Of a stretch of 9,153 nt of DNA, positions 2 to 9,153 are shown in pieces (position 1 is the first letter of the stretch; each line of letters starts with the position of its first letter). The stretch lies in assembly GCA_029974855.1 (NCBI GenBank), contig JARKQO010000143.1, positions 1 through 9,153 of the forward strand, in the 5' to 3' direction. The DNA comes from Eubacteriales bacterium. Its GTDB lineage: Bacteria; Bacillota_A; Clostridia; Christensenellales; Aristaeellaceae. Both the position numbers and the translations under genes were made by a program. The notes below the pieces were generated by a model. It saw only the letters and a program-made list of their open reading frames with translations, did not search any database and was not told the origin of the DNA.

Positions 2-199
2 GACAGCCTGTGGAAGTTCGTGCTGTATATCACCGGGCCCTTTAACCTGCTGAAATGGGTGGCCATCAGCATTGTGGGCACCATGATGTACAAACCCCTG
101 TCCCCCCTGCTCCACGGAAACGGCAAGGGAATCCGGCGGGGGGCCACGGGCGCAACGGCCCGGGTTCAACGCTCAGGGGAGGAAAAGGCGGAAAAATGA
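2..199 (+). CDS. C-terminal end of a membrane protein, probable ECF transporter S component (partial)
   Basis: The window opens inside this gene and only the last 65 codons are present, ending in TGA at 197-199. The visible part has a hydrophobic helix running through LYITGPFNLLKWVAISIVGT, then MMYKPLSPLLHG, then a polar basic/acidic tail rich in Gly, Arg and Glu. A final helix entered by GPFNLLKW and left by YKPLSPLLH resembles the C-terminus of riboflavin-type (RibU-like) substrate-binding S components of ECF vitamin transporters, which sit in the membrane and work with the shared EcfT/EcfA modules. The tail after LLHG is longer than I would expect. The stop overlaps the tsaE start by ATGA, so the two are probably co-transcribed. 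Family assignment rests on a short stretch; another small polytopic protein is possible. Confidence 0.55.
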   Translation, partial: DSLWKFVLYITGPFNLLKWVAISIVGTMMYKPLSPLLHGNGKGIRRGATGATARVQRSGEEKAEK

Positions 200-675
200 T
201 GCGTTATACCACCCAAAGCGCCGCCCAGACCCGGGCCTTGGGGCAGGCCCTGGCGGCCCAGCTTTGCCCCGGGGACGCGCTGCTGCTGTACGGGGATATG
301 GGGGCCGGAAAGAGCGAGCTGGCCCGAGGCGTCGCCCGGGGATTAGGGGTGCGGGAGACGGTGGCCAGCCCCACCTTTACCATCTTGCAGGTGTATGAAT
401 CGGGCCGGGTTCCCCTGTACCATTTCGACTGGTACCGGCTCCAGGACCCGGGGGAGCTGTACGAGCTGTCCATGGAGGAATACCTCCAGGGGGACGGGGT
501 GGCGGTGGTGGAATGGCCCCAGCGGGTCCCGGAGGCCATCCCTCCCCGGCACCTGATGGTGACGCTGACCCCCTTGGGGGAGGAAGCCCGGGAGGTCCTG
601 CTGGAGCCCATGGGGGGCTTCCGGGAACTGGATTCCCTCAGCTGGGAGGAACAAGGGAAGAAGGAGACCCATTGA
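196..675 (+). CDS. tsaE: tRNA threonylcarbamoyladenosine biosynthesis ATPase TsaE
   Basis: A 159-residue cytoplasmic ATPase of the TsaBDE complex that makes t6A37 on ANN-decoding tRNAs; TsaE binding and ATP hydrolysis drive turnover of the complex. The Walker A loop is GDMGAGKS at residues 33-40, followed by the family motifs SPTF (58-61), the Tyr-His-Phe-Asp-Trp-Tyr-Arg block (75-81) and VVEWP (104-108). Length is normal for the family. The reading frame is open upstream, but the start at 196 is preferred: it gives the family's usual short N-terminus, overlaps the upstream stop as ATGA, and lies 13 bases after AGGGGAGG (175-182). A second ATG follows at once at 199, closer to the usual spacing limit, so the protein may begin at either Met. 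It heads tsaE-tsaB-rimI, a common order in Firmicutes. Confidence 0.95.
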   Translation: MMRYTTQSAAQTRALGQALAAQLCPGDALLLYGDMGAGKSELARGVARGLGVRETVASPTFTILQVYESGRVPLYHFDWYRLQDPGELYELSMEEYLQGDGVAVVEWPQRVPEAIPPRHLMVTLTPLGEEAREVLLEPMGGFRELDSLSWEEQGKKETH

Positions 676-1388
676 ATTTGTTGGCAGTGGATACCTCGGG
701 CCCTGTGGCGGGGGTGGCGGTGCTCCGGCAGGGGCAGGTGGCCTACGAAGGGGCCGCCGTCAATTCCATGACCCATTCGGTAAGCCTCCTGCCCATGGTG
801 GAGGAGGCCCTTACCCGCAGCGGCCTGGACATTGGGGATATCGGCCTGTACGCGGCGGTGACGGGGCCCGGCTCCTTCACCGGGGTGCGCATCGGGGTGA
901 GCCTGATAAAGGGCATGGCCCACGGGGCGGGCAAGCCTTGCCTGGGGGTGGACGCTTTGGAGGCCCTGGCGGCGGGGGTGAGCCTGGAAGGCGCGCTGCT
1001 CTGCCCCATCCAGGACGCCCGGGCCGGCCAGGTGTACGGCGCGGCCTTCCGGGCCGGGATGCCTCCCCCCCGGGTCTTGGACAACCAAGCCCTGGAGCTG
1101 TCCTTGTTTGTGAAGGAATGCCTGGCGGTGGCCGGGCCCAGGGAACCCCTCTGCTTTCTGGGGGACGGGGTACTGAAATACCGGGCCGCTTTGGAGGCGC
1201 TGCTGGGGGAGCGGACCCGCTTTTTGCCAGCCCACCTCTCCTTTTTGCGTCCCGCCTCCGTGGCGGCGCTGGCCCAGGTCTATCAAAACCAAGCCGGAGA
1301 TTACCTGGCCCTCCAGCCTCAGTACCTGCGGGCTCCCCAGGCGGAGCGGGCCAGGAGCGCGGCCCTAGGGAAAGCGGGGCCCGCATGA
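672..1388 (+). CDS. tsaB: tRNA threonylcarbamoyladenosine biosynthesis protein TsaB (TTG start)
   Basis: A 238-residue protein of the ASKHA fold, the catalytically inactive partner that dimerises with TsaD (Kae1/Gcp) in t6A synthesis. The N-terminus NLLAVDTSGPVAGVAVL is the classic TsaB opening, and the family signature GPGSFTGVRIG lies at residues 65-75. Length is typical. There is no ATG at the right place. The best start is TTG at 672, which overlaps the tsaE stop (TTGA) and lies 5 bases after AAGGAG (661-666). TTG codons at 678 and 681 are alternatives, but they would shorten the conserved first strand. The frame is open further upstream inside tsaE; that extension is only the tsaE sequence read in another frame. 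The last codons overlap rimI by ATGA. tsaD is not in the window. Confidence 0.94.
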   Translation: MNLLAVDTSGPVAGVAVLRQGQVAYEGAAVNSMTHSVSLLPMVEEALTRSGLDIGDIGLYAAVTGPGSFTGVRIGVSLIKGMAHGAGKPCLGVDALEALAAGVSLEGALLCPIQDARAGQVYGAAFRAGMPPPRVLDNQALELSLFVKECLAVAGPREPLCFLGDGVLKYRAALEALLGERTRFLPAHLSFLRPASVAALAQVYQNQAGDYLALQPQYLRAPQAERARSAALGKAGPA

Positions 1389-1882
1389 TCCTAAAGGATG
1401 AAAAAGGCACCTGGCATATCCGGCGTATGACCGCCGGGGACGTGGACCAGGTTCACGCCCTGGAGGTCGCCACCTTCTCCACCCCTTGGAGCCGGGAGAG
1501 CTTTTTGGAGGAAATGGAAAAGAACAAATGCGCCCGGTATCTGGTGGCGGAGCTGGACGGGGAGATCGTAGCCTATGCCGGAGCCTGGATGATCTTTGAG
1601 GAAGGGCACATCACCAACGTGGCGGTGGCCCAGAGCCACAGGGGCAAGGGTCTGGGCAAGGCCATCACCCAGGCCTTGATGCAATACGCCGCCAATTTGG
1701 GGGTGCAGTACATGACCCTGGAGGTGCGCAAAAGCAACCTGACGGCCCAAAGCCTCTACCAAAGCCTGGGGTTTCTGGCCCTTGGGCTGCGCAAGCGCTA
1801 CTATGAGGACAACGGCGAGGACGCCCTGCTGATGGTGTGCCAGCACATGCCCCCGGTGCAGGAGGATTTTGAGGAAGCGTAA
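1385..1882 (+). CDS. rimI: GNAT N-acetyltransferase, ribosomal protein S18-alanine acetyltransferase RimI
   Basis: A 165-residue GNAT enzyme that transfers acetyl from acetyl-CoA to a protein N-terminus, classically Ala1 of ribosomal protein S18. The opening IRRMTAGDVDQVHALE (residues 12-27) and STPWSRESF (32-40) match RimI. The acetyl-CoA loop (Arg/Gln-x-x-Gly-x-Gly/Ala) is SHRGKGLG at 84-91, TLEVRKSN at 111-118 carries the conserved Glu and Asn, and RKRYYEDNGEDALLM at 136-150 is the characteristic C-terminal block with the active-site Tyr region. The ATG at 1385 overlaps the tsaB stop. RimI is often encoded beside t6A genes in bacteria and its range of protein substrates may be wider than S18. 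The unit ends at the hairpin 23 bases downstream. Confidence 0.93.
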   Translation: MILKDEKGTWHIRRMTAGDVDQVHALEVATFSTPWSRESFLEEMEKNKCARYLVAELDGEIVAYAGAWMIFEEGHITNVAVAQSHRGKGLGKAITQALMQYAANLGVQYMTLEVRKSNLTAQSLYQSLGFLALGLRKRYYEDNGEDALLMVCQHMPPVQEDFEEA

Positions 1883-7387: not shown

Positions 7388-7963
7388 ATGAACATCGGCT
7401 GTGTCGTCAAGGCCTCGGGCATCTCCGCCCGCTTCGGGGGGGACAAGCTGCTAACCCCCCTATGGGGGAAGCCCTTGATTATCCACGTGCTGGACAACCT
7501 CCCGCCCTCTTTCAGCCGGGTGGTGGTGGTGACCCGCCGGGAGGCCATCGCCGCCTTGGCCCGGGAGAGAGGGCTGGAGGCCGTTGTCCACGACATGCCC
7601 TTGGTCAGCGACAGCATCCGCCTGGGGCTTCATGCCATGGCGGACATGGAGGGCTGCGCCTTTTGCGTGGGGGACCAGCCGGGGCTAACCCAGGCCAGCT
7701 TCCAGCGCCTTTTGGAGGCCTTTGCCGCCCAGCCGGACCGCATTTTCCGCTTGGCCTACGGGGAGCAGATGGGCAGCCCCGTGATCTTTCCCCGGGCCCT
7801 GTTTCCCGAGCTGCTGGCCCTGAGCGGGGAGCAGGCCGGCAGCGTAGTGATCCGGCGGCACCGGGAGCTGCTTTCCTGTGTCCAAGCCACCTCCCCCCTG
7901 GAGCTGCTGGACGTGGACACCCGGGAGCAGCTGGCCTTTTGGGAACACCGGGGCCCCGGGTGA
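7388..7963 (+). CDS. mocA: Molybdenum cofactor nucleotidyltransferase, MocA/YgfJ family
   Basis: A 191-residue GT-A-fold NTP transferase. MocA enzymes add CMP to molybdopterin to make the cytosine dinucleotide cofactor of xanthine-dehydrogenase-family hydroxylases; YgfJ relatives are linked to selenium-dependent hydroxylase maturation. The nucleotide-binding loop is VVKASGISARFGGDKLL (residues 6-22), with ASG where many relatives have AAG. The metal-binding block is CVGDQPGLT (93-101), MGSPVIFP (128-135) is the substrate-side motif and LLDVDTREQL (173-182) the C-terminal Asp motif. The ATG at 7388 follows GGAGG (7373-7377) by 10 bases. It is transcribed divergently from the hydroxylase genes it is expected to serve. 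Whether it uses CTP or another nucleotide cannot be told here. Confidence 0.85.
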   Translation: MNIGCVVKASGISARFGGDKLLTPLWGKPLIIHVLDNLPPSFSRVVVVTRREAIAALARERGLEAVVHDMPLVSDSIRLGLHAMADMEGCAFCVGDQPGLTQASFQRLLEAFAAQPDRIFRLAYGEQMGSPVIFPRALFPELLALSGEQAGSVVIRRHRELLSCVQATSPLELLDVDTREQLAFWEHRGPG

Positions 7964-7972
7964 AAAACTCCC

Positions 7973-8010
7973 AAAAAACCCGCCGCTTTTTACGGAAAAA
8001 TTCTCGGCGG
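7973..8010 (-). terminator. Terminator-like hairpin oriented for minus-strand transcription
   Basis: CCGCCG (7980-7985) and CGGCGG (8005-8010) enclose an inner TTTTT/AAAAA pairing (7987-8000). On the minus strand the hairpin is followed by G and six Us (7978-7973), a good intrinsic terminator. On the plus strand the downstream bases are ACCCC, so it would not end mocA transcription well. No minus-strand gene is visible just upstream of it; it may block antisense RNA from entering mocA. Confidence 0.5.
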
Positions 8011-8015
8011 ACCCC

Positions 8016-8044
8016 TTGCGCTTCCCAGACGGATATGCTAGAAT
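8016..8044 (+). promoter_or_regulatory. Promoter of ssnA
   Basis: On the plus strand -35 TTGCGC (8016-8021), a 17-base spacer and -10 TAGAAT (8039-8044) in an extended context (TGC before it). The -35 is weak, the -10 good. Transcription would begin near 8051 and give a 200-base leader before the ssnA ATG, long enough to hold the folded element and terminator that follow. Confidence 0.6.
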
Positions 8045-8080
8045 GAAGCCGCGAAATCTGGAAATTCTCTATATAACCAA

Positions 8081-8171
8081 ATGACGACAATGGCTGCAAG
8101 GAAGTGCTTTGCGCACGGGCTGTTCCATAGGATGGGCACCGTGAACGCCGTTGTCTCATCCGGGAACCGCC
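8081..8171 (+). ncRNA. Structured leader RNA of ssnA with two competing folds, candidate riboswitch of unrecognised class
   Basis: Fold A is a three-way junction. P1 is AUGA-(C)-GACAAUGGC (8081-8094) with GCCGUUGUC-UCAU (8147-8159). P2 is GCAAGG/CUUUGC (8096-8101, 8107-8112) with loop AAGUG. P3 is CACGG/CCGUG (8114-8118, 8139-8143) capped by CCAU-AGG-AUGG (8125-8135). Fold B is an antiterminator: GGC-U-GUUCC (8118-8126) pairs with GGAAC-C-GCC (8163-8171), enclosing GGAUGGGC (8130-8137) paired with GCC (8147-8149) and CAUCC (8157-8161). Fold B breaks P1 and P3 and captures the left arm of the terminator at 8165-8206. Fold A leaves that terminator free. This is the architecture of a ligand- or factor-controlled attenuator. 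I could not match the junction sequences to a riboswitch class I know, including the Moco motif. Pairings were found by eye. Confidence 0.6.
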
Positions 8172-8206
8172 ATTTGGACAGGAAGCATTGTCCAGAGGGC
8201 GGTTTT
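8165..8206 (+). terminator. Attenuator terminator in the ssnA leader
   Basis: AACCGCC (8165-8171) pairs with GGCGGTT (8198-8204). Inside it TGGACA (8175-8180) pairs with TGTCCA (8189-8194) around an 8-base loop, separated by a 3x3 internal loop. TTTT (8203-8206) follows the GC core. It lies 45 bases before the ssnA ATG and downstream of the ssnA promoter, so it would stop transcription before the gene unless its left arm is held by the antiterminator. Confidence 0.7.
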
Positions 8207-8250
8207 CATCATCGTACCCCCCTGGACCGAAATAAGGGAGGAGCTTGGAT

Positions 8251-9153
8251 ATGTTGATTCTCACGAATGGCAGTGTGGTCACCCGGGACGAGGGCCGTCC
8301 CTTTCTGGAAAACGGAGCCGTGGTGATGGAGGGAGGCCTCATCCTGGAGGTGGGAGACGCCCGGGAGATGGGGCGCAAATACCCCGGGGCGGAGCTGTTG
8401 GACGCCAGGGGTGGGGTCATCATGCCGGGCCTCATCAACGCCCACAACCACATCTATTCCGCCTTCGCCCGGGGCCTTGCCATCAAAAACAACAACCCCA
8501 AGAGCTTTTTGGAGATTCTGGACCAGCTGTGGTGGACCATCGACCGGCACCTGCTGCTTCCCGACACCGCCGCCAGCGCCGACGCCACCTGTATCAACTG
8601 CATTGAAAACGGCGTTACCACCGTGTTCGACCACCACGCCAGCTACGGGGAAATCCCCGGCAGCCTGTTTGCCATCGCGGAAAGCGCCCGGCGCTACGGG
8701 GTGCGGGTGAACCTGTGCTACGAGATCAGCGACCGGGACGGCCCGGAGAAGATGAAGGCCGCCGTCCAGGAGAACGTGGACTTCATCCGCCATGCCCAGG
8801 GGGACCCCAGCGGCATGGTGGCGGGGATGATGGGCATGCACGCGCCCTTTACCCTCTCCAATGAGAGCCTGGAGTACTGCGTAGCCCAAAACCCTGAAGG
8901 GGCGGGCTACCACATCCATTTGGCAGAGGGCATCGAAGACGTATACGCCAGCCTCCGGGAGCATGGCAAGCGGCCTACCTACCGGTTGCATGACTTTGGG
9001 ATTTTGGGGGACAAGACCATCTGCGGCCACTGCACCCATGTCAGCGAGGCGGAGATCGACCTGCTGAAGGAGACTGATAGCATGGTGGCCCACAACCCGG
9101 AGAGCAACATGGGCAACGCCATCGGCTGCCCCCCTGTGCTGAAGATGCTTGAA
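8251..9153 (+). CDS. ssnA: Putative amidohydrolase SsnA (partial, runs off the window)
   Basis: The first 301 codons of an amidohydrolase of about 440 residues. SsnA is encoded in selenium-dependent hydroxylase and anaerobic purine/urate degradation clusters, often beside ygfK, ygeW and xdh genes; its exact reaction is not settled to my knowledge. Metal-binding motifs are PGLINAHNHIYS (59-70, His65 and His67), YHIHLAEG (220-227) and CGHCTHVS (258-265). SsnA-like blocks are LWWTIDRHL (93-101), TTVFDHHASYG (123-133), GMHAPFTL (195-202) and AHNPESNMGN (280-289). The final metal-binding Asp would lie beyond the window edge. The ATG at 8251 follows GGAGG (8237-8241) by 9 bases. It has its own promoter and attenuated leader, and read-through from mocA is possible because no plus-strand terminator separates them. 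Confidence 0.92.
   Translation, partial: MLILTNGSVVTRDEGRPFLENGAVVMEGGLILEVGDAREMGRKYPGAELLDARGGVIMPGLINAHNHIYSAFARGLAIKNNNPKSFLEILDQLWWTIDRHLLLPDTAASADATCINCIENGVTTVFDHHASYGEIPGSLFAIAESARRYGVRVNLCYEISDRDGPEKMKAAVQENVDFIRHAQGDPSGMVAGMMGMHAPFTLSNESLEYCVAQNPEGAGYHIHLAEGIEDVYASLREHGKRPTYRLHDFGILGDKTICGHCTHVSEAEIDLLKETDSMVAHNPESNMGNAIGCPPVLKMLE

Follow-up and report, generated by a model that had tools for sequence, protein, structure and literature searches.

The leader of ssnA belongs to the ssnA RNA family RF03031: anatomy of its expression platform and a proposal for ON attenuation

The leader preceding ssnA in the window (the whole stretch of 9,153 nucleotides analysed here) raises two questions: what kind of regulatory RNA is formed, and in which direction would it act on the gene. 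A preliminary description regarded the leader as an undescribed riboswitch or attenuator, located between a promoter and the ribosome-binding site, which alternates between a three-way junction followed by a free terminator and a long antiterminator. The features of the locus are as follows.

7388-7963, + strand: mocA/ygfJ-like gene (TIGR03310, 136.6 bits, below the cut-off of 186.45)
8016..8044, + strand: promoter-like TTGCGC (8016-8021)-17-TAGAAT with an extended -10 TGC, recognized by eye
8236-8243, + strand: ribosome-binding site GGGAGGAG, from sequence; the ATG of ssnA is at 8251
8251..9153, + strand, running off the window end: ssnA, putative aminohydrolase SsnA (NF005540, TIGR03314)
On the - strand: guanine deaminase gene (TIGR02967, 348.8 bits, cut-off 375.4)
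On the - strand: xdhA-xdhB-xdhC (family scores above their cut-offs)

The leader sits between mocA and ssnA, and the best families for the partial SsnA protein were NF005540 (422.8 bits, cut-off 444) and TIGR03314 (393.8 bits, cut-off 455.5). Its placement upstream of a ribosome-binding site was confirmed; the promoter ending at 8044 is plausible by eye, but the consensus scan reported none for the leader region. Among relatives, 87 of 115 distinct stretches upstream of the motif had TATAAT with at most one mismatch in their last 48 nt (54 expected), and 36 of 115 had exact TATAAT (6 expected). Elsewhere in the window, tsaE, tsaB and rimI lie consecutively at 196-1879 (+ strand) and stop before the xdh operon, which is an ordinary arrangement.

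Two Rfam matches were detected in the whole window, a purine riboswitch (RF00167) and ssnA RNA (RF03031). The former (7216-7119, - strand, 58.6 bits) precedes the guanine deaminase gene and xdhABC. Its ligand-reading base is presumably C (guanine type), with two joining strands altered, and its P1 3' strand is able to enter a hairpin that has no U-run. RF03031 matched the ssnA leader over the full model (1-48) with 44.5 bits (cut-off 37.3, E 3.8e-11). It was the only family detected in 7960-8300 at E up to 1, where neither the purine riboswitch RF00167, the xanthine riboswitch (NMT1), T-box nor any other family of Rfam 15 was matched. The leader is a structured cis-regulatory RNA of a catalogued, unexplained family and not a new RNA, and the earlier label of undescribed is refuted by this match. 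Its core consists of the following elements.

8084..8131, + strand: ssnA RNA RF03031, conserved candidate aptamer
8091..8095, + strand: 5' strand of aptamer P1, UGGCU, pairing with GGCUG 8118-8122
8096..8103, + strand: conserved 8-nt bulge GCAAGGAA
8104..8116, + strand: aptamer P2 hairpin GUGC/GCAC (8104-8107/8113-8116)
8118..8122, + strand: 3' strand of aptamer P1, GGCUG, which doubles as the 5' part of the antiterminator drawn earlier

All pairs of P1 and P2 in the window core (9/9) are standard. A pseudoknot between the bulge and the P2 loop was considered and discarded on inspection. The family core is a third fold that excludes both the junction and the antiterminator, because its P1 5' strand is common to the junction helix and its P1 3' strand is common to the antiterminator. 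This fold, which had been overlooked, is the part conserved in relatives; the junction helices P1-P3, earlier taken to be the conserved structure, are different ones.

The search for relatives started from an uncultured Oscillospiraceae genome that carries the motif (G001, locus L026). Within its order, RF03031 turned up in 18 genomes out of 394 (16 above the cut-off); one family gave 10 of 197 (9 above) and a second family 49 of 200 (45 above), the set of this second family having been screened twice with near-identical genomes in both lists. In a class sample (391) and a phylum sample (199), G001 alone exceeded the cut-off under strict filters, and no RF03031 was detected in 14 control genomes. 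Of 400 genomes from the second family, 128 encoded SsnA. The protein closest to the SsnA of the window was 71% identical (G998), and the closest relative locus was L285.

The ssnA loci examined numbered 160, of which 141 were distinct, and the core was present in 115 of these (118 instances), though many loci were fetched through the core itself. The 26 loci without a core all came from the SsnA search, and a few of them had little upstream DNA; one instance, at 103 in L268, was false and was removed. In the fetched loci of hits above the cut-off, ssnA lay downstream of the core in 60 of 60 cases (a few being one sequence), and the distance from core to ssnA was 91-430 nt (median 145.5, 118 instances). 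In one locus (L230:3475-3279, - strand) a 6S RNA (68.6 bits) lies immediately upstream of an ssnA RNA.

Among distinct cores (96 in all), the near-invariant parts were the bulge (GNAA...A), the C-G/U-G end of P1 that adjoins it, P2, and the G that separates the 3' strands. The remainder of P1 varied in step (UAGCU/GGCUG, CAACU/GGUUG, UGGUU/GGCCA, UGACC/GGUCA), and the last pair of P2 was U-A in place of C-G in 8 rows. In alignment A1, 17 cells showed two-sided changes against 4.2 in shuffled alignments (0/500), a count biased by the choice of rows with a complete P2 and at least three P1 pairs. A set of 123 anchors, picked by the bulge and GGG alone, is without this pairing bias. At least three of the five P1 pairs formed in 120 of them and each P2 pair formed in 120 or 121, while the shuffle test on this set was modest (54/2000 on 26 different strand pairs, some of the anchors being false). 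At E 0.05 the Rfam model missed two cores, namely that of L191 and a divergent core at L254:3064-3111 (- strand) with P1 UGACC/GGUCA.

The folds that compete with this core in the window leader involve the following segments.

8077..8086, + strand: 5' strand of P0, CCAAAUG-A-CG, able to form 9 pairs with the terminator 5' arm around the aptamer; possible antiterminator
8081..8094, + strand: 5' strand of the junction helix (anti-aptamer helix; P1 of the preliminary description), partner 8147-8159
8147..8159, + strand: 3' strand of the anti-aptamer helix, partner 8081-8094
8163..8171, + strand: 3' strand of the antiterminator drawn earlier, partner 8118-8126, with nested 8130-8134/8157-8161
8165..8206, + strand: intrinsic-terminator hairpin (8165-8180/8189-8204) with U-run UUUU 8203-8206
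8168..8177, + strand: 3' strand of P0, CG-C-CAUUUGG, within the terminator 5' arm

The three-way junction with a free terminator is indeed the minimum-energy fold of 8045-8253 (z -3.7, with 0/200 dinucleotide shuffles as low), and the signal was also strong for the junction alone (8079-8162, z -4.3, 0/300), for 8058-8206 (z -6.2, 0/300) and for the terminator hairpin (z -6.6, 0/300). The junction helix comprises 13 pairs and one bulge, and as a local duplex was equalled by 3/2000 shuffles. A consensus scanner, which needs 5 T in 8, reported no + strand terminator in the leader. The U-run at 8203-8206 is short.

The antiterminator 8118-8126/8163-8171, with its nested helix, can also be drawn, so that two exclusive folds do exist on paper. 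When only its 17 local bases were shuffled, 43/2000 shuffles equalled it; when any upstream partner was allowed, 372/2000 and 361/2000 shuffles paired equally well with the terminator arm. At all lengths with computed values for both, the junction was the more stable of the two. The antiterminator was rejected as not clearly above chance, and the argument that chance hardly explains such mutual exclusion is good for the junction but weak for this helix.

The second helix that could act as an antiterminator is P0, which is a possible candidate in the window leader. It was selected after a fold had been viewed, and a first test on 21 selected bases (single-base shuffling, 16/2000) was replaced by a fairer one: 1/2000 shuffles equalled P0 when shuffled locally, 69/2000 when 8051-8090 was shuffled, and 1324/2000 when any upstream partner was allowed, which is no better than chance. 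At position 8188, P0 gained 3.9 kcal/mol with the aptamer formed and lost 1.1 with the junction formed. At position 8206 the terminator led P0 by 7.4 kcal/mol when the aptamer was formed and by 13.5 when the junction was, and it was the favoured structure in all window states that were compared. Aptamer and terminator had a coupling of +5.3 kcal/mol in the window leader, the aptamer working against the terminator, and P0 is one helix behind this value. Where the junction is able to form, the aptamer was the less stable by about 12-20 kcal/mol (3.8 at position 8124), so that only co-transcriptional (kinetic) folding could preserve it.

In relatives, a hairpin of -6 kcal/mol or lower followed by a U-run (predicted terminator) was found 3' of the core in 115 of 118 instances. 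Of 25 ssnA leaders lacking the motif, 6 had a predicted terminator under -10 kcal/mol, against 24 of 24 sampled motif leaders (scanned over 170 and 130 nt). In 24 of 115 the terminator 5' arm begins inside the aptamer (about 20 are clear; the weak ones are L161, L170, L268 and L271), and the stem takes in 3 to 18 bases of the aptamer, for example 13 in L186 (18-pair stem), 12 in L222, 11 in L183 and 4 in L285. In this direct type the terminator arm uses an aptamer strand and the two structures cannot coexist, which implies ON logic. When P1 was forbidden, the base of the terminator paired mainly with the 5' or 3' half of the aptamer in 26 of 117 leaders; an automatic label of the same folds recorded loss of the terminator in only 6 of 117.

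The other 91 leaders are indirect, with a separate terminator, and their equilibrium coupling was mixed (39 above +1, 38 below -1 and 14 between). A single sign rule from equilibrium energies failed for this group, so ON regulation there is a proposal and not a result. The most negative values (L194, L193, L143 and L195) were probably scored against the wrong terminator. The base of the terminator pairs mainly with the aptamer 5' half in L194, L193 and L195, and with the upstream flank of the aptamer in L143. With the aptamer forced, an upstream segment blocked the terminator arm by 0.58 in 84 indirect instances, versus 0.38 in shuffles, and exceeded all 20 shuffles in 18 of the 84. At a truncated RNA length, 16 of the 91 leaders showed a change in blocking above 0.2 due to the aptamer, 13 of them in the wrong direction. 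The leaders L193, L194 and L195 carry tandem ssnA RNA cores before one ssnA, each core with its own U-run; the base of the second terminator in these tandem leaders pairs with the aptamer 5' half.

With P1 forbidden, 53 of 117 leaders, that of the window included, had the P1 5' strand paired to a segment lying after the aptamer and before the terminator. The junction helix of the window looks like one version of such an anti-aptamer helix, and it is in this role, not as a conserved fold, that it survives from the preliminary description. GAUAG/CUAUC was considered in place of the Rfam P1 and rejected as a general P1. In a subgroup alignment (A2, 59 rows) the pairs 8-13/49-54 formed in 353 of 354 cells; two-sided changes occurred in only 2 pairs, and the same helix slid by +3 had as many, with a similar covariation score (0.077 vs 0.085). 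These data weakly support UGRUAG/CUAUCA as the anti-aptamer helix of that subgroup. At about 9310-9420 of L285, a 12-base complementarity links the aptamer 5' flank and P1 strand (UCAAAAUGGCUG) to a segment between terminator and ribosome-binding site, perhaps as a second control layer.

On balance we consider it an even prospect that the leader, as a member of RF03031, attenuates ssnA transcription and that stabilization of its core leads to read-through (ON). In the proposed course of events, the small P1/P2 aptamer with its conserved bulge can form first, and would then be stabilized by something, most likely a small molecule of purine or urate breakdown. The stabilized P1 would withhold its strands from competing helices, and the terminator would be passed more often. 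The competitor in the window would be the junction helix. While the aptamer holds 8091-8095, the flank 8077-8086 would be left unpaired and might engage the terminator arm at 8168-8177, and formation of the junction would weaken this P0 pairing. The ON proposal draws mainly on the direct-type relatives and is tentative for the window leader itself. The part of the preliminary description that proposed a structured cis-regulatory RNA with a terminator before ssnA, in which mutually exclusive folds take part, is supported.

The opposite sign would follow if the aptamer destroyed the antiterminator, in which its P1 3' strand pairs with 8163-8171, so that a ligand would promote termination. Such an OFF switch is unlikely. 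In its favour, the aptamer strand 8118-8122 lies inside the antiterminator strand 8118-8126, this helix exceeded local shuffles, and the 38 indirect leaders with coupling below -1 are consistent with it. It is opposed by the chance-level score of the antiterminator with any upstream partner, by its lower stability relative to the junction, by the positive coupling of the window itself and by the ON logic of the direct-type relatives. On general grounds, a breakdown gene would also hardly be shut by its own substrate class.

A further question is what would stabilize the core. In the reductive urate pathway, XdhD reduces urate to yanthine, and YgfK and SsnA convert yanthine to ureidomethyl-hydantoin and ring-opened products; SsnA is described as cleaving a ring of purine origin there (PMC12507026, 2025). 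That paper regards the control of urate genes among gut bacteria as poorly understood. Downstream of ssnA, L285 has ygfK (TIGR03315, 1345 bits) and a selenium-dependent XDH (TIGR03311, 1347 bits), and in L289 diaminopropionate ammonia-lyase and YgeY are encoded farther downstream. Given the role of SsnA in this pathway, urate, yanthine and xanthine would be the first candidate ligands, a choice made from gene context. The earlier guesses of xanthine and urate were reasonable in this respect, and those of molybdenum cofactor and selenium have no specific support here. No paper on ssnA RNA, and no reported ligand for it, was found in the literature searched; the term ssnA was absent from four papers citing the 2017 survey of candidate structured RNAs (PMC11477304, PMC7373994, PMC7266159 and PMC10043782).

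The conserved hairpin might instead bind a regulatory protein, which we judge improbable to much the same degree as an OFF switch. A small hairpin with invariant unpaired bases would suit such an attenuator, and 45 of 141 loci (for example L289:9010-9681, - strand) have a divergent gene for a YheO-like PAS-HTH regulator no more than 1.5 kb from ssnA, 33 of these loci carrying the motif. However, 82 of the 115 motif loci (some of them short) have no such gene within that distance. Of the 26 motif-less loci, 12 have it, at 111-285 nt from ssnA. The two YheO-like examples scanned contained PF08348 and PF13309; PF13309 is a DNA-binding type of domain, which speaks against this reading.

Regulation may also have been lost in this genome, leaving a terminator and a structured spacer as a decayed expression platform. 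With the aptamer forced, blocking of the terminator arm in the window leader was below that of its shuffles (0.24 vs 0.32, with 14 of 20 shuffles reaching 0.24), and the chance-level scores of both antiterminators under free partner choice, the short U-run and the low stability of the aptamer relative to the junction point the same way. The intact core, the junction above chance and the positive coupling make decay rather improbable. Attenuation by a leader peptide, in which the position of a ribosome translating the frame from 8081 (58 codons) would choose the fold, is very improbable, since that frame is open through the leader but has no ribosome-binding site before it by eye, its start codons seem to be at variable positions among relatives, and open frames of this length are common by chance in G+C-rich DNA.

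Its relatives suggest that the leader might respond to something connected with the anaerobic breakdown of uric acid, allowing the breakdown genes to be transcribed further. A more specific form of the ON proposal, which we put forward tentatively and hold to be less probable, is a riboswitch for a metabolite of the reductive urate pathway (urate or yanthine, 2,8-dioxopurine) that would induce uric-acid breakdown in Oscillospiraceae-like anaerobes, with several unrelated platforms, including tandem copies, around a core of about 32 nt. If true, this RNA would be a sensor for urate-type compounds, showing how these anaerobes switch on uric-acid breakdown. The ssnA RNA itself was already known; the anatomy of the expression platform, the ON proposal and a short list of ligands are added here.

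The ssnA RNA family RF03031 reportedly comes from a 2017 survey of 224 candidate structured RNAs. The window leader resembles it in sequence, in P1/P2, in the conserved bulge and in its location upstream of ssnA, but the terminator, the anti-aptamer helix and the possible P0 of the window extend past the 48 positions of the model. The purine riboswitch RF00167 is also found at purine genes, but its model has 102 positions and an architecture different from that of ssnA RNA. The xanthine riboswitch (NMT1 motif) is likewise associated with purine-breakdown genes and has xanthine and urate as ligands; it is another family, however, and an OFF switch that probably acts on translation (PMC7373994). 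In some Clostridiales, sigma54 and DioR were predicted to control ygeW-ygfK-ssnA-ygeY (PMC6615313). That system concerns the same genes as ssnA RNA, but its predicted regulator is a protein activator at the promoter and not an RNA.
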